Virus record (IMG/VR): IMGVR_UViG_3300025652_000351
Location: 1 to 29,916 of that record
Source of the DNA: a virus
Strand: one strand, 5' to 3'
Length of the DNA: 29,916 nucleotides
Below, piece by piece: positions 1 to 29,916 of this stretch; the first letter of the stretch is position 1; each line of letters starts with the position of its first letter. The notes below the pieces were generated by a model, which made no database searches, was not told the DNA's origin, and saw nothing but the letters and a program-made list of their open reading frames with translations. The position numbers were made by a program, and so were the translations under genes.

Positions 1-114
1 GTAGACCGCAACGTACAGCACCTAGAGCTTATGGTTGCTAAAGACGACTGGGGCAGCGAAGACATGACCGCAGTTAATGCAGCCATCAGCGCAGGTAACG
101 GGTATAGCGCGTAA
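1..114 (+). CDS. C-terminal end of a phage protein, truncated by window edge
   Basis: The first frame is open from base 1 to a TAA at 112-114 and gives 37 residues with no stop. The tail contains HLELMVAKDDWGSEDMTA followed by a short Ala/Gly-rich end. It resembles the extreme C-termini of tail or tail-fibre-associated proteins in marine phages, but the family cannot be named from so little. The stop overlaps the next ATG by one base (TAATG), so it is probably coupled to the small membrane gene downstream. The start lies outside the window. Confidence 0.6.
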   Translation, partial: VDRNVQHLELMVAKDDWGSEDMTAVNAAISAGNGYSA

Positions 115-19666: not shown

Positions 19667-20148
19667 TAGCTATTCTCCGCTATCACTCTTGCTGTTAGCT
19701 CCTGCAAATACCAACTAGCTTTCTGTAAGTCTTCTGCCGGCTTACCTTTGTAGTCGTAGCGCCACAGGTATTTCATGCAGTTGCCCTTGAGATAGCCTCT
19801 GAAAGCCTCTGTAGACATAGACTCTGCTATAGCTTCAATACACTCTATGCTGCCAGTGTTGTAGTGCGCTGGGTTGTGTACTGCATCGTGTTCGTCTTCG
19901 TAATCATCGTCATCGTCATCGTCCTGATTTACCTTAGAAAACAACTCCCACACTTCCTGTCTACCCTTTTCTGTAGTCATATCGTAGTGGTCTGTGTCTT
20001 CTTCTTCCTCGTCTTCCCAAAGGTCTGCATTTTCATTGTGTGCTGCCTTCATCCAAGAATCCAACATAGAAGGTTTTTCAAGGGCAGGGTGGTTTGTTCT
20101 TAACCTGTTCCAATCTTCAGGGGTAGCATCATTCAATCGTTTGTTCAT
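19666..20148 (-). CDS. DUF3310 family protein (predicted nucleotide-kinase-like phage protein)
   Basis: The C-terminal 70 residues carry the DUF3310 signature: NPAHYNTGSIECIEAIAE, FRGYLKGNCMKYLWRYDYKG, and EDLQKASWYLQEL. Family members are sometimes annotated as 'nucleotide kinase', but I know of no firm activity. The N-terminal half (about 1-90) is an added, strongly acidic region with EDEEEED and a run of seven Asp (DDDDDDD) at about 76-82, which the family core lacks. The acidic region may be a flexible tether or nucleic acid mimic. Gene context is DNA metabolism: endonuclease I upstream and the reductase downstream. Confidence 0.8.
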   Translation of the reverse strand: MNKRLNDATPEDWNRLRTNHPALEKPSMLDSWMKAAHNENADLWEDEEEEDTDHYDMTTEKGRQEVWELFSKVNQDDDDDDDYEDEHDAVHNPAHYNTGSIECIEAIAESMSTEAFRGYLKGNCMKYLWRYDYKGKPAEDLQKASWYLQELTARVIAENS

Positions 20149-20284
20149 ACTCTATCTCACTGTTTTTATATCGGGTTTGTTTACGTTTAGTTTCTTTTAA
20201 TTTAGAAGACGTAGATATTTTTTTAAATTTTTTCTTCCGTACAAACCTATCTCGCCTTTCATCTTTTCGGCTGTAGTCAGTCAA
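20129..20284 (-). CDS. Possible small Lys/Arg-rich protein with TTG start
   Basis: An open frame continues through the gap between endonuclease I and the DUF3310 gene. A TTG at 20284-20282 overlaps the endonuclease stop region and has AGAGAG a few bases upstream. It gives 51 residues, including TDYSRKDERRDRFVRKKKF and ending SEIEYEQTIE. The product is strongly charged and its 3' end overlaps the next ATG by 20 bases. Without it there would be a 128-base gap in an otherwise gapless operon. The start codon is non-standard and no family is recognised, so this is a weak call. Confidence 0.3.
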   Translation of the reverse strand: MTDYSRKDERRDRFVRKKKFKKISTSSKLKETKRKQTRYKNSEIEYEQTIE

Positions 20285-20744
20285 AGGTCTCTCTCTTTTT
20301 TGTATTGATCCAGCTATCTGGGATGCTGTCTTCGCTATACCAAGTGAACCCATTTGCAGATGCCCACTCTCCATGAGATCTTTTTGTTCCGTCCTTTCTA
20401 CGCTTTGCTTGTGGCATAGGCGCACTTGGATTCGCAAACAGAAACACTAACTCTGTATCTTCAGGAAGCGCTTTGCTAATCCAAATATATTTACTAAATT
20501 CAGCGTAGTCCCAGAACCTTCCTTTAGCTTCAAGAAGAATCTTCTTACCATCAATATCTTTAAGGAAGTCGGGGTGGTAGTTGTGTTCAACAGTGTACGG
20601 AACCTTTTGAGTGTGAAAGTTCCAGCCGTCTAATATACCCGTGTGTAGCTCATACTCCCAGTTAGAATCATAACCTTTAACTAAGTCTTTTTCAACAGGT
20701 CTTTTAACTCTGGCTTTTCTAAAACCTTTCTTAACTTTTTTCAA
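20277..20744 (-). CDS. T7-type endonuclease I (Holliday junction resolvase)
   Basis: This 155-residue protein fits phage endonuclease I (149 residues in T7). Motifs are NWEYEL (Glu30/Glu32), YHPDF (Asp59), and LLEAKGRF (Glu72, Lys74). These match the catalytic Glu, Asp, and ExK of T7 gp3. The enzyme resolves branched DNA during packaging and helps degrade host DNA for nucleotide salvage. The start codon is TTG at 20744, with a strong GGGAGG 10 bases upstream, and it overlaps the preceding TGA. No earlier in-frame ATG fits. The weak start codon may limit the dose of a toxic nuclease. The C-terminal RRKDGTKRSHGEWA segment is also typical. Confidence 0.88.
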   Translation of the reverse strand: MKKVKKGFRKARVKRPVEKDLVKGYDSNWEYELHTGILDGWNFHTQKVPYTVEHNYHPDFLKDIDGKKILLEAKGRFWDYAEFSKYIWISKALPEDTELVFLFANPSAPMPQAKRRKDGTKRSHGEWASANGFTWYSEDSIPDSWINTKKRETFD

Positions 20745-20917
20745 TGAAGTTGAGCCTCCCGCCTTTCTAGTTCTGCTTCTATGATTAGCCTTAAATCTTC
20801 TAAGAACAGGCCATCTATATCACAGATAGTAGCGTCTTCGTTGTTGTACAAAAAGCTACCTACTGCAATAATCATCTGATCTAATGAGAGACCATTGAGC
20901 GCTGGTTTACTTTCCAT
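20741..20917 (-). CDS. 58-residue acidic hypothetical protein
   Basis: The frame runs from ATG 20917 to TGA 20741-20743 and starts MESKPALNGLSLDQMIIAVG. It is acidic in the middle (EDATICDIDGLFLED) and ends in a charged helix (RLIIEAELERREAQLH). It fills the space between its neighbours and overlaps the endonuclease TTG by four bases, so translation is likely coupled. It also overlaps the upstream gene by 37 bases, which is more than usual here. The coherent amphipathic C-terminal helix and filled gap support it. No family is recognised. Confidence 0.6.
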   Translation of the reverse strand: MESKPALNGLSLDQMIIAVGSFLYNNEDATICDIDGLFLEDLRLIIEAELERREAQLH

Positions 20918-21183
20918 GTGATCAACTCCAAGTCAACATCTTCGATTTCAATATCGGGGAAGATTTTAATTAATTGTTTTATTTTCTTTGTTATCCATTT
21001 GGGATGATAGGCATTCAAATACATTGTCCTGTTTGCCATGAAGTGAGTTTGCTCAGGCATCATAGTCTTGTAAGTATCTACGGTGACCTTCTCAGCTTCT
21101 TCTTCGGGCAATAATTGTTTCATCCAAGAAACTAGCAATGTAATTGAGTGTCGAGTAATGCGTTTGCTTTTTTTTCTATTCAT
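20881..21183 (-). CDS. Small hypothetical phage protein
   Basis: This 100-residue protein starts with a basic segment (NRKKSKRITRH), then helix SITLLVSWMKQLLPEEEAEKV. A conserved-looking core follows, TMMPEQTHFMANRTMYLNAY, then HPKWITKKIKQLIKIFP. The ATG overlaps the TGA of the nuclease gene (ATGA). It is cotranscribed with the RecB-like nuclease and may be an accessory to it. I do not recognise a named family. Confidence 0.6.
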   Translation of the reverse strand: MNRKKSKRITRHSITLLVSWMKQLLPEEEAEKVTVDTYKTMMPEQTHFMANRTMYLNAYHPKWITKKIKQLIKIFPDIEIEDVDLELITWKVNQRSMVSH

Positions 21184-22040
21184 AATAATTCATCTACTTT
21201 CGGTTCGACTACTACTTTGGTTAAGTAAGTTAGGCCGTTTGAGTATTTAAATGTTCTTAAACCTTGACCATCATTGGAATCTGCAAAGCAGTTGTACTTG
21301 TATTTACACCAGCTACAGCCCTTAGCAAGCTTTATATTTCCTTTCTTTCCATCCGGTATTGGAGCGTAACAAAGTTCTGGTGGTGTGTCAAGCTCCAAAG
21401 AAGGAATAAGTTTGTTTATTTTAGATTTAATATTAGGCTTATCAAGATCATCGGGCACATACATGCACAGCTCTCCGCTCTCTTTGTTCAAAACCAAGAA
21501 GCCTCCATTCTCTGTACCCTCTGCTTCCTCATAACCGGCAAGCTGCCCAAGATAACCGAAGGGATCGTCTTGTGCTAAGCGCCCTTCCTTGAACTTGTTG
21601 AATGCAAAACGAGATGCGGTCTTAACATCAACCACCTCACCGTTTATCTTGCAGTCCATATGACCTACGATGCCGTCAACTACAACTTCTTTTTGCTCAT
21701 CTGTTACTTCGTAGTCCACCATGCGTACTAACATCAACACAATCTCTTCAAGCAAGTGGCCGTACAAGAACTTAATCTGTGTCGGGCCATCCACACCACC
21801 GCGTCCTTTAGGATCACGCTTCTCATACCACAACTGGCGAGGAGGTTTACCTACATTAGACATCCGAACAGTGAAATCGGAGTCTCGTTCCCGTGGTGTT
21901 GCCCAAGACATCAAGGCTTCTTTCATTCCTGATATAGTTCGGTCAATGTTCTCTTCGGTGAGAGGCAAAGGTTTGCCATCGTCTGATAACCTCTCAAGCT
22001 CGTTGTAAATTTCAGGTACTAATTCATGTAAGCCCATCAT
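21180..22040 (-). CDS. PD-(D/E)XK exonuclease, RecB/Cas4-like
   Basis: This 286-residue protein has the motif series of RecB-like nucleases: GHLLEE (94-99), GHMD with Asp129, VVDVK with Asp138 and Lys140, and YLGQLAGY with Gln166 (motif QxxxY). A Cys group C242-x2-C245-x5-C251 near the C-terminus resembles the Fe-S region of Cas4/AddB proteins. The N-terminal cysteine that completes that cluster is not where expected, so an Fe-S centre is uncertain (Cys224 could contribute). In T7-like phages this place is held by the gp6 5'-3' exonuclease, which this enzyme probably replaces. The start follows AAGGA. Confidence 0.82.
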   Translation of the reverse strand: MMGLHELVPEIYNELERLSDDGKPLPLTEENIDRTISGMKEALMSWATPRERDSDFTVRMSNVGKPPRQLWYEKRDPKGRGGVDGPTQIKFLYGHLLEEIVLMLVRMVDYEVTDEQKEVVVDGIVGHMDCKINGEVVDVKTASRFAFNKFKEGRLAQDDPFGYLGQLAGYEEAEGTENGGFLVLNKESGELCMYVPDDLDKPNIKSKINKLIPSLELDTPPELCYAPIPDGKKGNIKLAKGCSWCKYKYNCFADSNDGQGLRTFKYSNGLTYLTKVVVEPKVDELL

Positions 22041-22052
22041 AATTTCCTTTGT

Positions 22053-22565
22053 TTAAAGCTCAGTGTTCTGAACAATAGATTTTATATCTTTAAGCGAAGC
22101 CTTGAACCACTCGCCACGTTTTTCTATCTTGTTGTTTGCTAGTTGCTCGTGTACTTTTTCTTCTGCGTTCTTTCTGTTATCAAAGTACTTACAGTATTCT
22201 ACCGCATAATCTCTTAGAGGTGAAGATGTTTGATACCCAGAGCATCTGTCATATGCATCAATAGCTCGTCCTACCTTGAACCACCCATCCCAAGCAGGAT
22301 TAGAGATTATATAAACATAGCCGTATTCCACAGTAGAATACTTATCTAGCGATGCGAATGCTACGCTTTCAAAAGTTTTAAATCTTCCGGGGGTGTGTAG
22401 TGGATGTGAGGCAGGGACATACTTACCGCCAACAAACATACGATTAGAGTTTTTACGTCTGTGCGCTTCGATGCTTCGCCTAGCTCCATCACTTGCTCCA
22501 ACATACCACCACTTGCCGCTTTCAAAAATTGAATTTTTAACATTGGGTATAGTACTTGTATTCAT
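22053..22565 (-). CDS. T5orf172/GIY-YIG nuclease, probable free-standing homing endonuclease
   Basis: The C-terminal domain (from about residue 75) reads YGYVYIISNPAWDGWFKVG, then RCSGYQTSSPLRDYAVEY and EKVHEQLANN. This is the T5orf172/GIY-YIG-like pattern with Tyr-Val-Tyr-Ile, Lys-Val-Gly, Arg and Glu. The N-terminal region (RRKNSNRMFVGGKYVPASHP) is a probable DNA-binding module. The start at 22565 has AGAGG about 7 bases upstream. An in-frame ATG at 22628 lies inside the polymerase gene without a good ribosome site. Free-standing homing nucleases often sit next to polymerase genes, so it may be a selfish insertion. The polymerase C-terminus is intact. Confidence 0.75.
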   Translation of the reverse strand: MNTSTIPNVKNSIFESGKWWYVGASDGARRSIEAHRRKNSNRMFVGGKYVPASHPLHTPGRFKTFESVAFASLDKYSTVEYGYVYIISNPAWDGWFKVGRAIDAYDRCSGYQTSSPLRDYAVEYCKYFDNRKNAEEKVHEQLANNKIEKRGEWFKASLKDIKSIVQNTEL

Positions 22566-22584
22566 CGTGTCTACCTCTGAATTA

Positions 22585-24357
22585 TTAGTGGGTTTCTGAC
22601 CAGTTGTTTCCGACATTATAATCTCCATCTAAGGGGCAGTTTAAGTTTAACCTCTTGCCCGCTTCTATAATAGACTCTACTCCAAGCTTTCCTACAGCAT
22701 CTGCGACAGTTTCATGGCACTCTATCTGCCACTCATCGTGTACGTTAGCTACAAACTTAGCATCTAAGTAAGTCAGTTTAGAATCTAATATTATTAAAGC
22801 CTTCTTCATTACAATAGCTCCTGCGCCCTGCAATAAAGTATTAAGTGCAGCGTGTTCAGAACGAACAGTCAAGCGCCTGCCGTCTAACGCTTTAACGAAT
22901 CCGCTTTTAGCTTCTCGCTGAACTCTGTCCGTAAGCTTCTTAAATGATGGGAGACCATCAAAGAAGCGTTGTCTAAGCTGCTTACCTGCTGCTCTACCTC
23001 GTCCAGCCACTGACCCAAGCTTCGCATCTCCTGCTCCGTAGAGGAGGGCATAGATGAAAGTCTTCGCCTGATTTCTTGATTCAAGTCCTGCAAGTTTTTG
23101 ATTAGCGGTGTGTATGTCTCCGTTAAGGATTTCATTTGTATAGCCCTCATCGTCTAAATAGTGTGCCAACATTCTAAGTTCTAAGCCAGAAGCATCTATG
23201 CCCACAAGTTTATAGCCTTTCGGTACTGTCCAACAAGCACGACAGTCTTCACCGTAGGGCGAGTTACTGCTGGGTATCTGTGCCATGTTAGGATGTGAGT
23301 GAGTCATACGAGATGTCACCGCACCGTTGGGATTGACATATCCGTGAACCCGTCCTGTCTCTTCATTAAGTTCTTTAATCCAGCTTTTAGTTTGTGCTAA
23401 GCGTTTCTGTAGCATCAAGTACTTAGCAATCATTGCAGCTTGCGGGATATTCTTAACCCTATTGAGTGTTGCTTCATCTACAATGGGCTGTCCTGTAGGT
23501 GTATGCTTATTAGGATTCCAGCCAAAGCGAATAAGATATTCACCGATCTGTTTCCTTGAACCTAAGTTAAAAGGTATTTCAGTTTTACGTGCAATGGGCT
23601 TACAGTTTACATCAAGCGTTAGCTTCTCGTATTCTAGGTCTGTCAGCCTTGTGCCCTTTCCGTGTTGGTCTGTAGCTGTCTTAGCTACTGCGCCTGTGGC
23701 AGTAAACTTAGGAGTAAGGATCTGTGTAACAACTACAGGTTTAAACTCCTCCTGTACCTCTTGCTCCAAGTCATGTAGTTTAGTTTCAAACATTGCCATC
23801 AGCCCCATCACCTTCTCAACATCTAATACGAAACCATTGCTCCGCTGCTCATCAATAATCTTAGCTACAGCATGCTCTATCTGAACTGATTGTGGTGTGA
23901 ATCCACGGCTCTCAACCTTGAGTGCTTCATATACTTTAGTATTAAGCAGCACATCGTTCTTACAATACTCTAGCATCTCTGGAGTGTACTGTTCCCATGC
24001 GTCTTCTTGCTGTCCGAAGTCGCCTTTCTTGAACCCCAGCCTGTAGCCCCAGCCCTCAAGACCGTGATTGCCTTCGCGTGTTGGGTTAAACAAACGCGAC
24101 AGCACCAGAGTATCTACAATCTTCTTGTCGAACAGGTCAACACCAGAAATCTTTTTAATTGCAGGAATGTCATAGCCAATTAAGTTATGACCTATCAGTT
24201 TAGTTGCAGAGGATAGAAGTTCATAGCCCTCTTGCAGCTGAGTGTTGTCAAACGTAAACACATCCATAGTATCTACGTCTTGAGCCACGATACAATGAAT
24301 CTTCGTGGGGTCTAAGCCGTCTGCTTCTATATCAAATACTAAGTTACTCATTCGCAT
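22585..24357 (-). CDS. Family A DNA polymerase with 3'-5' exonuclease
   Basis: This 590-residue replicative polymerase has all key motifs. Exo I is FDIEADG (Asp9, Glu11), Exo II GHNLIGYD (58-63), and Exo III YCKNDV (131-136). Palm motif A is GIDASGLELR (Asp388), motif B is RNQAKTFIYALLYG, and motif C is VHDEW (His540, Asp541, Glu542). The residue at the E. coli Pol I 762 position is Tyr436, as in T7 (Tyr526). T7 polymerase is about 110 residues longer, so the thioredoxin-binding insertion is probably absent. The start follows AGGAG. It works with the primase-helicase encoded just upstream. Confidence 0.95.
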   Translation of the reverse strand: MRMSNLVFDIEADGLDPTKIHCIVAQDVDTMDVFTFDNTQLQEGYELLSSATKLIGHNLIGYDIPAIKKISGVDLFDKKIVDTLVLSRLFNPTREGNHGLEGWGYRLGFKKGDFGQQEDAWEQYTPEMLEYCKNDVLLNTKVYEALKVESRGFTPQSVQIEHAVAKIIDEQRSNGFVLDVEKVMGLMAMFETKLHDLEQEVQEEFKPVVVTQILTPKFTATGAVAKTATDQHGKGTRLTDLEYEKLTLDVNCKPIARKTEIPFNLGSRKQIGEYLIRFGWNPNKHTPTGQPIVDEATLNRVKNIPQAAMIAKYLMLQKRLAQTKSWIKELNEETGRVHGYVNPNGAVTSRMTHSHPNMAQIPSSNSPYGEDCRACWTVPKGYKLVGIDASGLELRMLAHYLDDEGYTNEILNGDIHTANQKLAGLESRNQAKTFIYALLYGAGDAKLGSVAGRGRAAGKQLRQRFFDGLPSFKKLTDRVQREAKSGFVKALDGRRLTVRSEHAALNTLLQGAGAIVMKKALIILDSKLTYLDAKFVANVHDEWQIECHETVADAVGKLGVESIIEAGKRLNLNCPLDGDYNVGNNWSETH

Positions 24358-24673
24358 ACTGCTCCTTTAGGATATGCTCTTTATCTTTATTCTTCCAAAC
24401 ATTATTAGGACTGCGGTGATCTTTGAGCATCTCTTCGTAATACTCTTGAAGTACATCAAACTCTATTGCAACGCGCAGCCCCGCTCCAGTGAAGTGTGCC
24501 CAATCAAGAATCCCAACAGGCCTAAACCTTGTTTTGTTTTTAGCTATTAAGAATCCGTTAAAGATTGTACCCTGTCTAGTGTAGCTTACTTCATAAACTA
24601 ATTCAGGGGCTGTCTTTCTAAGATGTTGCAGCGCCTTCTGTAAGGCGTAAGTTCCGTAAGGTGTCTTACTCAT
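24344..24673 (-). CDS. Hypothetical protein between primase-helicase and polymerase
   Basis: This 109-residue protein has a basic helical start (YALQKALQHLRKTAPELVYE). A beta-rich middle follows (VSYTRQGTIFNGFLIAKNK) with a LDWAHFTGAGLRVAIEFDVL segment, then a charged C-terminus. The ATG overlaps the helicase TGA (ATGA) and its 3' end overlaps the polymerase start by 14 bases. The position suggests a replication accessory factor. No family is recognised and no catalytic motif is visible. Confidence 0.6.
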   Translation of the reverse strand: MSKTPYGTYALQKALQHLRKTAPELVYEVSYTRQGTIFNGFLIAKNKTRFRPVGILDWAHFTGAGLRVAIEFDVLQEYYEEMLKDHRSPNNVWKNKDKEHILKEQYANE

Positions 24674-26370
24674 ATTATATCTCCATCAAACTGAGACGCA
24701 TCGTAATCATCTAACTCTCTAAGCCTTCCTGTCTTGCCATCATACAGTAAGTTGCATGCCACTCCGACATCTCCGGTGTATCTAGATTTAAGCACTCGCA
24801 CCTTGGTGGTTGATGCCTCTATTTCATCTTCTGATTGTTGGTTACGCTCAAGTGCAATCACGCAGTCAGATAACTGAGCAATAGACTGTGAGCCTCTGAG
24901 GTGTGATAGGCCTGTCTCGATACCGTTCTCATGTCCACGGTTCCCTTCAACTCTACGCAAGTGTGACACTAGGATCATGCCGCAGCCTGTTTCTTCTACC
25001 ATGGTTCTGAGCTTATGCATGATACTATCAATAGCTTTCCGCTCATCATTCTCCAGTGTAGAGAGAACCAACATGTGTAAGTGATCAACAACAATCCATT
25101 TACAGTCTAGACCAATGATCATGTAGCGTAGCTTGCTGAAGATGTCATCAAGATTATTGACACCGTGGTGAGCATGAATCCAAACACGACCCTCATTATC
25201 ACCCATGAATACTTTCTTGAAGCATTCGTCTAACTGATCGTCTGTGAACTGAGCCTTAACACTGTCGAGGTGTAGCTTGGCGTTAGCTTCAACGGCCATG
25301 ATGCCCTCAGCAGTACGAGACCAGTTCTCTTCAAGGGCTACAACACCTACATTATCTTCTGTGTTATCGATCAGCCAGTGTTCTATCTCACGAGTAACAG
25401 ATGACTTACCCAGCCCTGTGCCGCCAGTGAGAGTGACTAGCTCACCTGCTCTCATGCCTTCTAACTTGCCGTTGAGACCAGACCAAGGATAGGGAATAGC
25501 TGTTTTCTTTTCAGTGCGTAGCTTTTGATAAGCTCCCAGCTGATCAGATAGATTTAAAACACCAGAAGGTGTGTAGAGTTTTGCTTCCCAGAAAGCACTA
25601 ACATATGCAGAATGTCTACCCTGACGCAACATATCGTTTGCATCCTTGTAGTCCACAGGCAGTGTCATGATCTTAGCTTTGCCGGGAGTTAATAGTTTTG
25701 CAATTTGTTTAGCCGCTTCCTTGCCGGGCTTATCGTTGTCGAAGTTAATGACAACAGAGTCGAACGACTCAAGATATTCAAGACTAGCTTTAACATCACG
25801 GACACCTCCCTGTGCCCCTGACTTTATTGATACTGCTGGCCACTTAGAACCCATAAGTTCGTAAGCAGCCATAGCATCGCACTCGCCTTCCACTAATGTT
25901 ATAAACTTACCGCCTGCTTTAAACAGGTTCTCACCAAACAACCCAACTTCTTTAGAGCTTCCTTCCCAAGCAAAAGACTTATCTGGCTTGCGAATCTTTG
26001 AAGCTGCTAGTTCGTGTCCATTATAATAAGGGTAAACATGCTTATCAATCTGGCCTGAATTAGTAACTGTAGCTCTCACCCCATACTTTTTTGCTGTAGC
26101 TAAACTAATCTTGCGATCAGCCAGCTCTACAAATCTAGCATCAGATGTCCGCTGCTGGTGTGAACTCTGTTCCATCTTACTGTTCCTTTGATAAACTTCA
26201 AAGTCCGTTATCGTGTCCGGTTCAATGTCCGGTTGGTGTACTTCCGATGTACTGTAGTTTTTAAAATACTTATTACAACTAAAGCAGAATGCAGACCCAT
26301 CATCATTGATACCTGCTGCATCGCTAGAGCCGCACTCAAAGCACGGCTGGTGCATTTTAACGAAAGGCAT
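24670..26370 (-). CDS. T7 gp4-like DNA primase-helicase
   Basis: This 566-residue bifunctional enzyme matches T7 gp4 (566 residues). The N-terminal zinc-binding motif is Cys10/Cys13 (CFEC) and Cys29/Cys32 (CFSC). The TOPRIM primase has LVEGECDAM (Glu161) and INFDNDKPG (Asp211, Asp213). The helicase has Walker A GGTGLGKSS (316-324), LEENW as the H1a region (347-350), Walker B-like WIVVDHLHML, and ILVSHLRR as motif H3. It unwinds DNA ahead of the polymerase and makes RNA primers. GAGGAG upstream supports the start. Confidence 0.94.
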   Translation of the reverse strand: MPFVKMHQPCFECGSSDAAGINDDGSAFCFSCNKYFKNYSTSEVHQPDIEPDTITDFEVYQRNSKMEQSSHQQRTSDARFVELADRKISLATAKKYGVRATVTNSGQIDKHVYPYYNGHELAASKIRKPDKSFAWEGSSKEVGLFGENLFKAGGKFITLVEGECDAMAAYELMGSKWPAVSIKSGAQGGVRDVKASLEYLESFDSVVINFDNDKPGKEAAKQIAKLLTPGKAKIMTLPVDYKDANDMLRQGRHSAYVSAFWEAKLYTPSGVLNLSDQLGAYQKLRTEKKTAIPYPWSGLNGKLEGMRAGELVTLTGGTGLGKSSVTREIEHWLIDNTEDNVGVVALEENWSRTAEGIMAVEANAKLHLDSVKAQFTDDQLDECFKKVFMGDNEGRVWIHAHHGVNNLDDIFSKLRYMIIGLDCKWIVVDHLHMLVLSTLENDERKAIDSIMHKLRTMVEETGCGMILVSHLRRVEGNRGHENGIETGLSHLRGSQSIAQLSDCVIALERNQQSEDEIEASTTKVRVLKSRYTGDVGVACNLLYDGKTGRLRELDDYDASQFDGDII

Positions 26371-26375
26371 TTGCC

Positions 26376-26603
26376 TTACTCCTCAGTTTGTGCAACTTCC
26401 TCTGTTGCGATAGCCTCTTCCGTAAGGTGGTTTTCTTTAAGATCATTAATTAGTGCTACAGTGGCTGCTTGCATTAAGCCTGCGGTCATTGAAGCTTCTT
26501 GCAACTTGGCGTTTGCTTCTACCAAGTGTGTAAGAATTACCCTACCCTCATCTGAGAGTAGGTCTGATTCATAGTTTACGTTGTCGATTGTTACTAGTGC
26601 CAT
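26376..26603 (-). CDS. Small acidic helical phage protein
   Basis: This 75-residue protein starts VTIDNVNYESDLLSDEGRVI and continues as a long helix with AKLQEASMTAGLMQAATVALINDL, ending in a Glu-rich tail. The 'ID...Y...LSDE' start followed by one long helix resembles small phage proteins of unknown function that often sit near replication genes. The ATG overlaps the stop of the SSB gene (TAATG). An accessory role is inferred from position only. Confidence 0.6.
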   Translation of the reverse strand: MALVTIDNVNYESDLLSDEGRVILTHLVEANAKLQEASMTAGLMQAATVALINDLKENHLTEEAIATEEVAQTEE

Positions 26604-27031
26604 TACAGTTCATCCTCCATTCCGCCATCTAGTGAATCAAACTCTGAACCATCAGGTGAACCAACTTCTACTAAGTCAATAACCTGCATAGCTTGGAAGT
26701 CTAAGCCCTTAAATATCTTGCCTTTCCATTCTGATTCCCACTCCTTGTACTGAACCTTAACGCTTGAGCCGTTACCTACACGAGCATCTAGCGGGTTCTT
26801 GTACGCATCTACCAAGCGGGGTGCTGGACGTACCATGCCGTTCGGGCCGTTAACTTTACGCTTGATTACAACTGCTGGGCCTTCATCCATCTGTTTAATA
26901 GTGAAGCCTCGTGATTGAAAATCTTCAGCAGTCGCCTCATCTACAACTAGATTAACCGAATACACTGGCTCATAAGTTGTGTTAGGTGTAGTGACTGAAG
27001 CCCAATATGCTGCGCCTTGTAGTATTGCCAT
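26603..27031 (-). CDS. Probable single-stranded DNA-binding protein
   Basis: This 142-residue protein is beta-rich: YWASVTTPNTTYEPVYSVNL, then AVVIKRKVNGPNG and GSSVKVQYKEWESEWKGKIF. It carries basic and aromatic residues, as in OB folds. The C-terminus is strongly acidic with GGMEDEL, like the tails of T7 gp2.5 and SSB that contact the polymerase and helicase. Gene order supports this, since the primase-helicase and polymerase follow. AGAGG upstream fits the ATG. A sigma-70-type promoter lies 37 bases upstream. The family is not certain (DUF2815-like or gp2.5-like). Confidence 0.72.
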   Translation of the reverse strand: MAILQGAAYWASVTTPNTTYEPVYSVNLVVDEATAEDFQSRGFTIKQMDEGPAVVIKRKVNGPNGMVRPAPRLVDAYKNPLDARVGNGSSVKVQYKEWESEWKGKIFKGLDFQAMQVIDLVEVGSPDGSEFDSLDGGMEDEL

Positions 27032-27067
27032 GTTGCTTTCCTCTTTGTGGTTGTAAAATGTTTGTGG

Positions 27068-27096
27068 AATATACCACGTTTATTTGTTGCCGTCAA
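27068..27096 (-). promoter_or_regulatory. Sigma-70-type promoter for SSB and replication genes
   Basis: On the minus strand, TTGACG (27091-27096) and TATATT (27068-27073) are separated by exactly 17 bases. Transcription would begin near 27060 and leave a ~30-base leader before the SSB ATG. The -35 lies in the end of the MazG-like gene. It should boost the replication genes over the upstream small genes. Confidence 0.6.
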
Positions 27097-27421
27097 TATC
27101 TGAAGCCTTGATAAAGATTCCGTCCTTCATTATTCCTGTACGATCTTTAATATCTTCATAAGCATGATCAATACAGTGCTTCAAAGGCAGGTTGTTTCGT
27201 ACAGCTATGTTAATTAATATAACTATGATGTCTCCGATGTCATCAACAGGTGTCGTATTTTTGCAGATGCTGTCTGATAACTCCCCAACTTCCTGCATAA
27301 GTTTTAACACTTGTTGTTTATCATCCGACCCATGTATAAGGTTACGAGCTAAGTGCCAAGAGATTATCCGCTGTATTGAAATCTCTATGCCACGGTTTTC
27401 TTCATTTATTTCTTGCTCCAT
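27080..27421 (-). CDS. MazG-like nucleotide pyrophosphohydrolase
   Basis: This 113-residue protein is helical with the MazG metal site: QEVGEL (Glu44, Glu47) and, 14 residues on, VDDIGDIIVIL (Asp61, Asp64). Asp61 takes the place of the usual Glu in the ExxD half. All-alpha NTP pyrophosphohydrolases of this size cleave (d)NTPs or signalling nucleotides, and MazG proteins are common in marine phages. The role is probably nucleotide pool control or removal of damaged nucleotides. The start lies 16 bases inside the preceding gene. Confidence 0.75.
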   Translation of the reverse strand: MEQEINEENRGIEISIQRIISWHLARNLIHGSDDKQQVLKLMQEVGELSDSICKNTTPVDDIGDIIVILINIAVRNNLPLKHCIDHAYEDIKDRTGIMKDGIFIKASDIDGNK

Positions 27422-27654
27422 ATCTCTCCTCCTTTAACTTTTGTTTTAACGGTGTCTGATTTAACAGCCATTAACTCCATCATAGCCTCATATTCAGTCT
27501 TGTCAATAATGTATTGTATTACAGTTTGCTCCCTGACATTGTACATAGAGCAGGCTGTACTTAAAGGAACCTTCCCGTCCACCACATCCAAAGCTGCTTT
27601 AGCTGTAGCCATAGCTTCAAGACTAGGACTGCCAGATATTGTTTGTTCAAACAT
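27406..27654 (-). CDS. Small protein with helix-turn-helix-like segment
   Basis: This 82-residue protein has VVDGKVPLSTACSMYNVREQ followed by TVIQYIIDK (about 24-52). The 'PLSTA..YNV...T' spacing resembles pipsqueak/homeodomain-like HTH domains that bind DNA. The C-terminus is basic (KTKVKGGEIWSKK). The ATG overlaps the previous TAA. As one of the early leftward genes it may be a transcription regulator. The HTH is read by eye and is moderate evidence. Confidence 0.5.
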   Translation of the reverse strand: MFEQTISGSPSLEAMATAKAALDVVDGKVPLSTACSMYNVREQTVIQYIIDKTEYEAMMELMAVKSDTVKTKVKGGEIWSKK

Positions 27655-27800
27655 TATGCTAACTCCAAAAACATAAACAACAATGTGAATAGCACTGCGA
27701 ATATCACCGCAACATTACTCCACTTTATAAACCTGCTAGGTATCCTTGAAAAATCAAGTAGTCTTTTTACTCTCCTTGACTTCAGTAGATTGCTTAACAT
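27654..27800 (-). CDS. 48-residue single-TM membrane peptide
   Basis: The frame runs from ATG 27800 to TAA 27656-27654, with AGGAG 7 bases upstream of the ATG. It begins MLSNLLKSRRVKRLLDFSRI, an amphipathic cationic region, and ends in a hydrophobic span VAVIFAVLFTLLFMFLELA. The end overlaps the next ATG by one base. The gene is nested 47 bases into the preceding frame. The basic-then-hydrophobic plan predicts an inner-membrane peptide with an N-terminus in the cytoplasm. Early small membrane peptides can alter host membrane functions or block superinfection; the role here is unknown. Confidence 0.6.
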   Translation of the reverse strand: MLSNLLKSRRVKRLLDFSRIPSRFIKWSNVAVIFAVLFTLLFMFLELA

Positions 27801-27915
27801 TTTTCATCTCCTCTTTAAATGTTTGTTTAAATATTTCATCAAAATTTTTACTGAACTTATTGTGATCTACTCTTCTAGCTCGATCACCTTTACCGCCATG
27901 AGTTTGTTCGCCCAT
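27754..27915 (-). CDS. Small charged phage protein (GKGDRARRVD motif)
   Basis: The chosen ATG at 27915 has GGAGGG 5 bases upstream; an earlier in-frame ATG at 27966 has no such site and overlaps the preceding gene. The product has 53 residues, starting MGEQTHGGKGDRARRVDHNK with FSKNFDEIFKQ next and a Lys/Glu-rich tail. The 'GKGDR.R.V....F..NFDEIF' pattern recurs in tiny phage proteins of unknown function. The tail of this frame overlaps the start of the TM peptide gene. Confidence 0.6.
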   Translation of the reverse strand: MGEQTHGGKGDRARRVDHNKFSKNFDEIFKQTFKEEMKNVKQSTEVKESKKTT

Positions 27916-27916
27916 G

Positions 27917-28117
27917 TCATCCCTCCATATATACTTGTCCGAATGTAAGAACAAAGAAAGGCACACACAATACTATGCCTTCAAACTGTGCGGCTTCAAA
28001 ACCATCTATGTCATCGCCACACACCCACACTGCACGAGTATCAGTAAACTCTAAGTCTAAACCCACACCGTTTCGTACATTTACACTGAAGTTATACTTT
28101 CCAAAATTGATTGTCAT
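27917..28117 (-). CDS. Small beta-rich hypothetical protein
   Basis: This 66-residue protein reads MTINFGKYNFSVNVRNGVGL, then EFTDTRAVWVCGDDIDGFEA, and ends in a hydrophobic strand VLCVPFFVLTFGQVYMEG. AGGG lies 9 bases before the ATG. It sits directly after the DUF932 gene (1-base gap). The alternating pattern suggests a small beta sheet. No family is recognised. Confidence 0.55.
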   Translation of the reverse strand: MTINFGKYNFSVNVRNGVGLDLEFTDTRAVWVCGDDIDGFEAAQFEGIVLCVPFFVLTFGQVYMEG

Positions 28118-28118
28118 C

Positions 28119-29057
28119 CTATGCTGCCCTCATGAATTGGTTAGATTTAACAGCCTCACGAACTATCTGCTGTCGTTGATTCTGAACTGCTGCAATGTTC
28201 ACCTCATTACTAAGTCGGGAGGCTGTCGCATGAGTTGACCAGTCAGTCAAAGCATTATACACAGCCCAGTAATTATTACCTAGTCGCTGAGAATAAACTG
28301 TTTTATATTTGTTCCAAACATATTCAAGACTGGCGTTGCGTCTGGGAAGATCTCCAAGGATAACTTGAGGATCAACGTACCCTAACCCTATGAGCTTCTC
28401 AGCTGATGTGCATTTGAGAGACTTACAAAAGAATATAAAGGCGCTCTCATCATCAGTCCTTGTCTGCTGCCACTGCTGCCACAGGTCACGCTCTTTGTGG
28501 AAAAGTTGTAAAGACTTAGTGATAACTCGACCACCCTGCTCAATGTCCAAAGACCTTGTGTGCTTTGCTTTAAACACAGCAACCTCACCGCTAACAAAGA
28601 CTTGTAGATTTGTACACGCCTGCTGAATAGCTGCTGCACTGATCATGAACGGCCAAGTACCATCGAAGGATGATATGGACAACAGACTCAGAGCAGCTGT
28701 ATCTCCATCAGCAGTCCTATACGTATGCTCAGGAAGTTTGTACTGCACAAAAGTTCTTGAACCATCATGAGATGTACGGATAGTTTCTTGTATCCCGTTA
28801 ATTGACAGATCAGAACGCTCAATAATATTACGAGTAACATCTATCATGTGCTTAGGTGCAACAGGTTTGTAACCATGTCCGTGTACTCCCAGCTCTTGAG
28901 CTGTATCTGTACGATAGATAATAGACTTGGAGCTTTCATAAGCATCTAAATAAATTAAAGGTGCTGTAGCTATATCAAAATCTGCTGAGCCATAACCCCC
29001 ATTGCGGATTGTAGTTAACGCTGTGTTGTTTGCAAACATAGGTGTAATGTTGTTCAT
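28119..29057 (-). CDS. DUF932-family phage/plasmid protein
   Basis: The best start is ATG 29057, since GGAG lies 6 bases upstream; an in-frame TTG at 29069 covers that ribosome site. The 312-residue product matches DUF932-like phage proteins: RNGGYGSADFDIATAPLIYL at the start, HGHGYKPVAPKHMID, and LLSISSFDGTWPF followed by ACTNLQVFVSGEVAVFKAKH. DUF932 proteins are widespread on phages and plasmids with no settled activity; the fold is shared with LGT/YfjQ-type proteins as I recall. It is the first gene after the strongest leftward promoter, so it should be made early and abundantly. Confidence 0.75.
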   Translation of the reverse strand: MNNITPMFANNTALTTIRNGGYGSADFDIATAPLIYLDAYESSKSIIYRTDTAQELGVHGHGYKPVAPKHMIDVTRNIIERSDLSINGIQETIRTSHDGSRTFVQYKLPEHTYRTADGDTAALSLLSISSFDGTWPFMISAAAIQQACTNLQVFVSGEVAVFKAKHTRSLDIEQGGRVITKSLQLFHKERDLWQQWQQTRTDDESAFIFFCKSLKCTSAEKLIGLGYVDPQVILGDLPRRNASLEYVWNKYKTVYSQRLGNNYWAVYNALTDWSTHATASRLSNEVNIAAVQNQRQQIVREAVKSNQFMRAA

Positions 29058-29089
29058 TTCATTCTCCAAAAAAAAGTTTTAGTCTTCGG

Positions 29090-29117
29090 TTGACATCATT
29101 TGAAAAGAGATTATAAT
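29090..29117 (+). promoter_or_regulatory. Rightward sigma-70 consensus promoter facing the early genes
   Basis: TTGACA (29090-29095) and TATAAT (29112-29117), both perfect consensus, are 16 bases apart on the plus strand. Transcription would start near 29124 and run rightward, antisense to the small early genes. No coding region for it is seen in the window. Confidence 0.55.
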
Positions 29118-29139
29118 ACTTTTAAGGTTTACAAGTCAA
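29110..29139 (-). promoter_or_regulatory. Leftward sigma-70 promoter for DUF932 and following genes
   Basis: On the minus strand, TTGACT (29134-29139) and perfect TATAAT (29110-29115) are 18 bases apart. Transcription would start near 29103, leaving a ~45-base leader before the DUF932 ATG at 29057. It is the likely main promoter of the leftward arm. Confidence 0.7.
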
Positions 29140-29218
29140 CTATTATTTTATTTATAGTATAACTTATAAGATACAAAAGAACTTATGCACTCTATCAAGA
29201 CTATATAGTGTGTATTCC

Positions 29219-29234
29219 TTATAATTAATTATAA
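29219..29234. repeat. 16-bp perfect palindrome TTATAATTAATTATAA
   Basis: The sequence is identical on both strands and overlaps the stop codon of the gene ending at 29229. Being all A/T, it is a weak hairpin, but it could be a protein-binding operator near the facing promoters. Confidence 0.6.
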
Positions 29235-29465
29235 CAAATCCTTATTGTTATCCTCTTCAACGACCTCAACTGGTGAAATATCCACCACCTGATCGCCATA
29301 TGGCTTATAAACGCCAGAGTTTTTGTTGATCTCTGCATATTGTAGGGCTTCTTCGGGTGAACCAGCCGCCACATCTATGAAGTAACCATTCACTTTTGAC
29401 ATCATAACTTTGTAAACCTTTATAGGTTTCTCAACGTCCATCTGCATTACTAACTTATCTATCAT
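29229..29465 (-). CDS. Small hypothetical early protein
   Basis: This 78-residue protein starts MIDKLVMQMDVEKPIKVYKV, followed by MMSKVNGYFIDVAAGSPEEALQYAE (two parts) and an acidic tail VEVVEEDNNKDLL. The middle resembles a beta-beta-alpha unit where SPEEALQYAE is the helix, common in small phage proteins. AGAGG lies 9 bases before the ATG, and the start overlaps the preceding gene by 11 bases. No family or function is recognised. Confidence 0.6.
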   Translation of the reverse strand: MIDKLVMQMDVEKPIKVYKVMMSKVNGYFIDVAAGSPEEALQYAEINKNSGVYKPYGDQVVDISPVEVVEEDNNKDLL

Positions 29466-29631
29466 CTTCTTGAACCTCTGATTTGAGATGTTGGTTTCCT
29501 TCCTTTCGGAAGCGTTTGTTGTAGCCGCGCTTAATCTTTTTAGCTTCTTGGCTTTTAAGACTTATGAATTTTCTCCAGCGGGTCAGAACATCCTGCTCAT
29601 CACCGCCTTTTAGTTTTATTCTATTCCGCAT
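29455..29631 (-). CDS. 58-residue basic early protein
   Basis: The frame runs from ATG 29631 to TAA 29457-29455. It starts MRNRIKLKGGDEQDVLTRWR and continues KKIKRGYNKRFRKEG. 'KGGDE.D.LT.WRK....KKIKR.YNKR.RRE' is a pattern seen in small phage proteins, suggesting a real nucleic-acid-binding micro-protein. It overlaps the preceding gene by 11 bases and the next by 11. The function is not known. Confidence 0.6.
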   Translation of the reverse strand: MRNRIKLKGGDEQDVLTRWRKFISLKSQEAKKIKRGYNKRFRKEGNQHLKSEVQEDDR

Positions 29632-29794
29632 TTTTCTCTACCAGAGCTGAGTGTGCAAGTGTTAGTTCGCGATAGTGTTTGTTCAACAGCCTCGCCCCTG
29701 TTTCGCTCACCTCTGCACCGTTCAAGTCCTCAAGTGTTTCCTCTAGTGCCATTTCGACCAGCTCTAACAGCACAGCGTGTTCACTAATTTTCAT
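29621..29794 (-). CDS. 57-residue acidic helical protein
   Basis: The frame runs from ATG 29794 to TAG 29623-29621 and is preceded by GGGAGAAAGCAA, a good ribosome site. The product starts MKISEHAVLLELVEMALEET and reads LARL-type helices (GARLLNKHYRELTLAHSALV). It looks like two amphipathic helices. The ATG overlaps the previous TGA (ATGA). No family is recognised. Confidence 0.6.
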   Translation of the reverse strand: MKISEHAVLLELVEMALEETLEDLNGAEVSETGARLLNKHYRELTLAHSALVEKNAE

Positions 29795-29916
29795 TTGCTT
29801 TCTCCCAAGTACGTTATAATATAGAAAGGCCCACCACGCTGACCAATTTTATGTGCATCTTCAAGGGTTGCAGCGTACTGCGTACAACCCATCTCATCCC
29901 AATCAATTGCCCACAT
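29791..29916 (-). CDS. Small early protein reaching the window edge
   Basis: The frame is open from the window edge to TGA 29793-29791. It starts at an ATG on the very last three bases and may begin further upstream. The visible 41 residues include MWAIDWDEMGCTQYAATLED and GQRGGPFYIITYLGESK. The next gene's ATG overlaps its stop. Nothing more can be said about its role. Confidence 0.5.
   Translation of the reverse strand: MWAIDWDEMGCTQYAATLEDAHKIGQRGGPFYIITYLGESK

Follow-up and report, generated by a model that had tools for sequence, protein, structure and literature searches.

Does an antisense promoter that overlaps the sense promoter of a phage gene do anything, or does it merely come with the symmetry of the -10 element? 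The question is posed by the region ahead of a DUF932 gene in the window (the whole stretch of viral DNA analysed, 29,916 nucleotides), in which a single palindromic -10 belongs to two near-consensus promoters, one on each strand. It is debated whether bacteria put antisense and bidirectional transcription to use or whether it is noise, and among relatives of this phage the antisense arm persists where the sense arm does not. Judged on its sequence, the arrangement is of a known kind, the bidirectional promoter; what is unusual is the comparative evidence for selection on the antisense arm.

The promoter pair and its genomic setting

The features of the site and its flanks are as follows (window coordinates).

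28119-29057, minus strand: DUF932 gene (ATG at 29057, GGAG ribosome site just upstream; Pfam PF06067, 69.1 bits; phrog_1221)
29090-29117, plus strand: rightward promoter TTGACA-16-TATAAT, 12/12 consensus, antisense to the early genes (TTGACA 29090-29095; TATAAT 29112-29117; spacer 16 bases)
29110-29139, minus strand: leftward promoter TTGACT-18-TATAAT, 11/12 consensus, for DUF932 and the replication block (TTGACT 29139-29134; TATAAT 29115-29110; spacer 18 bases)
29110-29117, both strands: palindromic -10 common to the two arms, ATTATAAT
29089-29094 and 29135-29140: outer arms GTTGAC and GTCAAC
29103-29107 and 29119-29123: inner dyad AAAAG and CTTTT
29124-29125, plus strand: predicted rightward transcription start (A), 7-8 bases past the -10
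29101-29103, minus strand: leftward transcription start predicted from sequence, 7-9 bases past the leftward -10
29229-29794, minus strand: last early genes (78, 58 and 57 aa, from the ORF list), antisense to the predicted rightward transcript

A sequence-only reading had proposed two near-consensus promoters on opposite strands at these positions, overlapping on a single palindromic -10; all of its coordinates are right, as is the overlap. Each arm has the near-consensus -35 and -10 hexamers, 16-18 bases apart, of a sigma-70 promoter. The -10 elements lie on opposite strands with bases in common, as in bidirectional promoters, ATTATAAT being used by both strands, and from this geometry the predicted starts of the two arms are ~21-23 bp apart. 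The pattern TTGACW-15..19-TATAAT has 2 sites in the whole window, both within the pair; 100 dinucleotide shuffles of the window gave a mean of 0.08 sites and never reached two. The two arms were likewise the top two promoter sites in a scan of 20000-29916, and they remained so when the whole window was scored in a weighted scan. We consider it very probable that both arms are active promoters. The directions assigned by the earlier reading also fit: the leftward promoter would drive DUF932, to which its distance is suitable, and the rightward one is predicted to run antisense to the early genes, which are leftward and lie on its path.

The window represents only part of the phage genome. A 100% identical DUF932 and the same upstream sequence are present on a contig of 49,768 bases (G001, locus L003), and the TerL of this contig is 70% identical to that of Pelagibacter phage HTVC115P over 83% of the length and ~51% identical to that of HMO-2011. 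The replication gene set (primase-helicase, DNA polymerase, ribonucleotide reductase) matches in kind that of the HMO-2011-type group. By TerL and replication gene set, the phage is thus placed as related to the HMO-2011-type marine podoviruses. These phages (PMC9038755; HTVC115P, CRP-1, HMO-2011) have the same kinds of replication genes and a close TerL, but none of the isolates read has a DUF932 close to this one (CRP-1, 24% identity), and the parts of CRP-1, HTVC115P and HMO-2011 that were scanned hold no comparable promoter pair. Direct DNA similarity to phage records came to one short match, at the MazG gene. A host search returned no relatives of DUF932 in bacterial genomes, and no RNA polymerase gene was seen among the proteins scanned (part of the gene set). 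A tRNA search returned none, and nothing scored above the gathering score of a known RNA family.

Structural genes run rightward, early and replication genes leftward, and the leftward early block runs on in the 49.8-kb copy. In the parts of that copy that were scanned, comparable near-consensus promoters occur at two places only. One, at the window-equivalent of ~33.9-34.1 kb, is a perfect pair of divergent promoters that separates the early genes from the terminase block; the other is the overlapping pair ahead of DUF932. Two related loci (L086 and L088) have the same two-node layout. From the positions of the two nodes, the rightward arm faces the leftward early promoter over ~4.8 kb.

Conservation of the two arms among relatives

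We collected 209 usable DUF932 upstream sequences (including loci taken more than once from one contig) in five viral-contig scans and sorted them into 33 distinct types. The rightward promoter is kept in 19 of the 33, with a spacer of 16 bases in all 19, in the form TTGACA/TGGACA-16-TAWA(A/C)T (nominal p 0.005-0.015 per type against dinucleotide shuffles, a comparison blind to ancestry). The distance from the rightward -35 to the DUF932 ATG varies from ~28 to 70 bases and the spacer is constant; the geometry of the promoter is therefore the constrained feature. Conservation reaches the predicted start and the first transcribed bases, the predicted start positions being A in 17/19 and 16/19 types. 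In types L070 and L074, a rightward promoter lies at a different position and its spacer is 17 bases long. The rightward promoter is not essential across the family, because 12 of the 33 types (eight that are AT-poorer, and L008, L035, L081 and L170) lack a clear one.

The sense arm is distributed differently. By our grouping, the overlapping leftward promoter is present in 5 of the 19 types (the window type, L015, L043, L055 and L110). Seven others (L014, L032, L042, L114, L152, L153 and L155) have a leftward promoter elsewhere, mostly closer to the ATG and in some cases weak, and the last seven (L004, L018, L019, L023, L050, L053 and L109) have no clear leftward promoter, their best leftward score giving p 0.14 to 0.83. 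Relatives with the leftward boxes but without TTGACA at 29090, which the sequence-only reading had named as the finding that would speak against it, were sought and none was found. The asymmetry is the reverse: the rightward arm is kept without the overlapping leftward arm, and no relative that we found has the opposite arrangement. We infer that, of the two arms, the rightward one arose earlier and is better conserved, and its retention more often than that of the overlapping leftward arm suggests that the predicted rightward transcript has some function.

The exact overlapping geometry occurs in 5 of the 33 types, in all of which the -10 hexamers overlap by 4 bases. A search of a 2.9-million viral collection for a composite pattern with 20 fixed positions found it in 24 contigs, directly beside DUF932 in 23 of them (the exception is L246). 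The -10 is palindromic in 5/5 types with an overlapping leftward -35 and in 1/14 types without one (Fisher p = 0.0005, blind to ancestry). The palindrome is thus tied to the leftward -35, as expected if both arms use ATTATAAT. For a leftward promoter to form over the rightward one, it would be enough that the -10 is palindromic and that a TTGACT stands 18 bases upstream of it.

The arms are conserved or exchanged separately among relatives. L109 and L110 have identical DUF932 proteins and proximal regions, with different upstream modules joined near the -35; both keep the rightward -10 at 16 bases, and the overlapping leftward arm is present in L110 and not in L109, a difference that would have arisen with the exchange of the upstream module. 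L035 and L053 have near-identical DUF932 and different upstream regions. Because identical or near-identical DUF932 proteins go with different early modules, these modules are exchanged at or near the promoter, and the early region 3' of the antisense arm is a mosaic of small ORFs that differ between relatives. On a DUF932 tree, the promoter arrangements are scattered (12 changes, against a shuffled mean of 18.5), so that they have been gained, lost or exchanged several times.

Possible roles of the antisense arm

We favour a reading of the site as a bidirectional sigma-70 promoter placed where early genes meet replication genes, with a conserved antisense arm that probably reduces transcription of the early genes. 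From the geometry, host RNA polymerase would bind in either orientation. Bound leftward, it would transcribe DUF932, MazG, SSB, primase-helicase and DNA polymerase; bound rightward, it would make an antisense RNA that enters the early genes and heads for the strong early promoter ~4.8 kb off. The antisense arm would lower early output, by polymerase collision or RNA pairing, at about the point where expression passes from the early to the replication genes, and the leftward arm would have been gained or exchanged on top of the rightward one in some lineages. Taken singly, the step by which the antisense arm is supposed to act, dampening of the early genes, is nearly an even bet, and we put it forward tentatively. 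The antisense target differs between relatives, which would fit transcriptional interference better than pairing with one mRNA.

Bidirectional promoters of the type described by Warman et al. 2021 (PMC12825309, PMC10268837) likewise lie on opposite strands, have -10 bases in common and produce one antisense RNA. Their published start spacing is 7-25 bp, with 23 bp among the common values, a range that includes the spacing predicted for the window pair. The predicted pair in the window adds a near-consensus -35 on both arms, and it differs in lying at a boundary between early and middle phage genes and in having an antisense arm whose conservation does not depend on the sense arm. The sequence-only reading had supposed that only one polymerase could bind at a time. 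Little polymerase competition was seen at basal activity for five E. coli bidirectional promoters (PMC12825309); the near-consensus boxes in the window would make such competition more likely than in the E. coli cases. The layout also resembles convergent promoters with transcriptional interference (PMC6593788), in that the rightward arm faces a strong leftward early promoter and polymerases would meet; in our case the predicted interference would act over a separation of ~4.8 kb.

A bolder version of this proposal, possible but doubtful, would make the conserved antisense promoter a central early/replication switch in a large marine phage group, with new sense promoters arising repeatedly over its -10, which they would have made palindromic. 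Were this true, the antisense arm would be the selected part and not noise. The site also offers a lead on how early and replication genes are timed in phages without a recognised RNA polymerase gene. The sense arm is all that distinguishes certain near-identical phages (L109 and L110, with the same DUF932), which makes the question of use or noise testable by reporters.

The strongest competitor holds that both arms are active and that the rightward RNA is a functionless by-product of -10 symmetry, as has been proposed for the divergent RNA of many bacterial bidirectional promoters (PMC12825309, PMC10268837). The near-symmetry inherent in a -10, the widespread occurrence of divergent transcription (PMC12825309, PMC10268837) and the lack of a conserved antisense target would all suit this explanation. 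A by-product should, however, accompany a leftward promoter, whereas the rightward TTGACA arm stays in the seven types without a clear one and also in the seven whose leftward promoter lies elsewhere; we regard this explanation as unlikely.

The rightward transcript might instead serve replication by opening or priming an origin at an AT-rich boundary. The site does lie between the early genes and the replication block, its flank (29118-29229) is AT-rich, and reverse-promoter transcription is reported to activate oriV of plasmid RA3 (PMC9455977). Against it, the sign of the GC skew is unchanged across the site (a weak argument, as skew is confounded by gene direction) and direct repeats of 10 or more bases were not found there. 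We rate a role at an origin as possible but improbable. It is less probable still that the conserved sequence is a recombination junction for the exchange of early modules, in which the promoter is incidental. The upstream differences between L109 and L110 and between L035 and L053 would be expected of a junction, but conservation is strongest in the -35, the -10 and the start, with a fixed 16-base spacer, and not in a continuous block. Recombination at a junction may nevertheless contribute.

Symmetry, folding and hairpins around the site

That the symmetric arms are an operator through which one regulator controls both directions, a possibility raised from the outer GTTGAC/GTCAAC arms and inner AAAAG/CTTTT dyad of the window, is very improbable, as the two -35 boxes themselves make up the outer arms and, outside the boxes, the dyad shows no excess over chance in any of the tests on the five types sharing this geometry. 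In these types, 31/90 or 28/95 positions outside the boxes pair (two centres), against chance expectations of 27 and 31, and with three centres the dyad is not above chance (p 0.16 to 1.0). The inner dyad is present where the sequence-only reading placed it, but does not exceed chance over the five types, and the proposed symmetric target for a single regulator was not supported. The outer symmetry is gone in relatives that have the rightward but not the leftward promoter.

Two proposals for the antisense RNA were rejected. A conserved antisense target gene was discarded, the early block being a mosaic of small ORFs, and a small RNA with a nearby terminator was set aside on finding no conserved hairpin plus T-run in the first few hundred antisense bases; no intrinsic terminator was found close 3' of the rightward start. 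Folding of the first 120 antisense bases is strong in few types (z -5.5 in L110 and -3.6 in L043; 0.3 in the window). A search for a published transcriptome of a close relative returned none; PMC12753301, on HTVC022P and HTVC027P, says nothing of antisense RNA or of promoters.

Several local structures were observed in passing. In L110, a 15-bp perfect hairpin (ATTAGATCTTATGAG / CTCATAAGATCTAAT) follows closely on the rightward start and separates the promoter pair from the last early gene; a related hairpin is present in L043. In L014, L032 and L114, CCTTTAAAGG-like palindromes (CTTTTAAGG, CTTTAAAGG) recur just 3' of the rightward -10; the start region that is conserved includes CTTTWAAGG. 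Inside a GP88-like gene (PF17338) of L082 (4131-4163, plus strand), a hairpin and T run resemble a terminator in the antisense direction, and similar hairpins in the same direction occur in L086 and L088; conserved coding sequence may account for them. Finally, the window has a palindrome, TTATAATTAATTATAA, with flanks at 29214-29239, and a very similar 20-base stretch lies ahead of the L055 DUF932 gene, turned the other way with respect to that gene.
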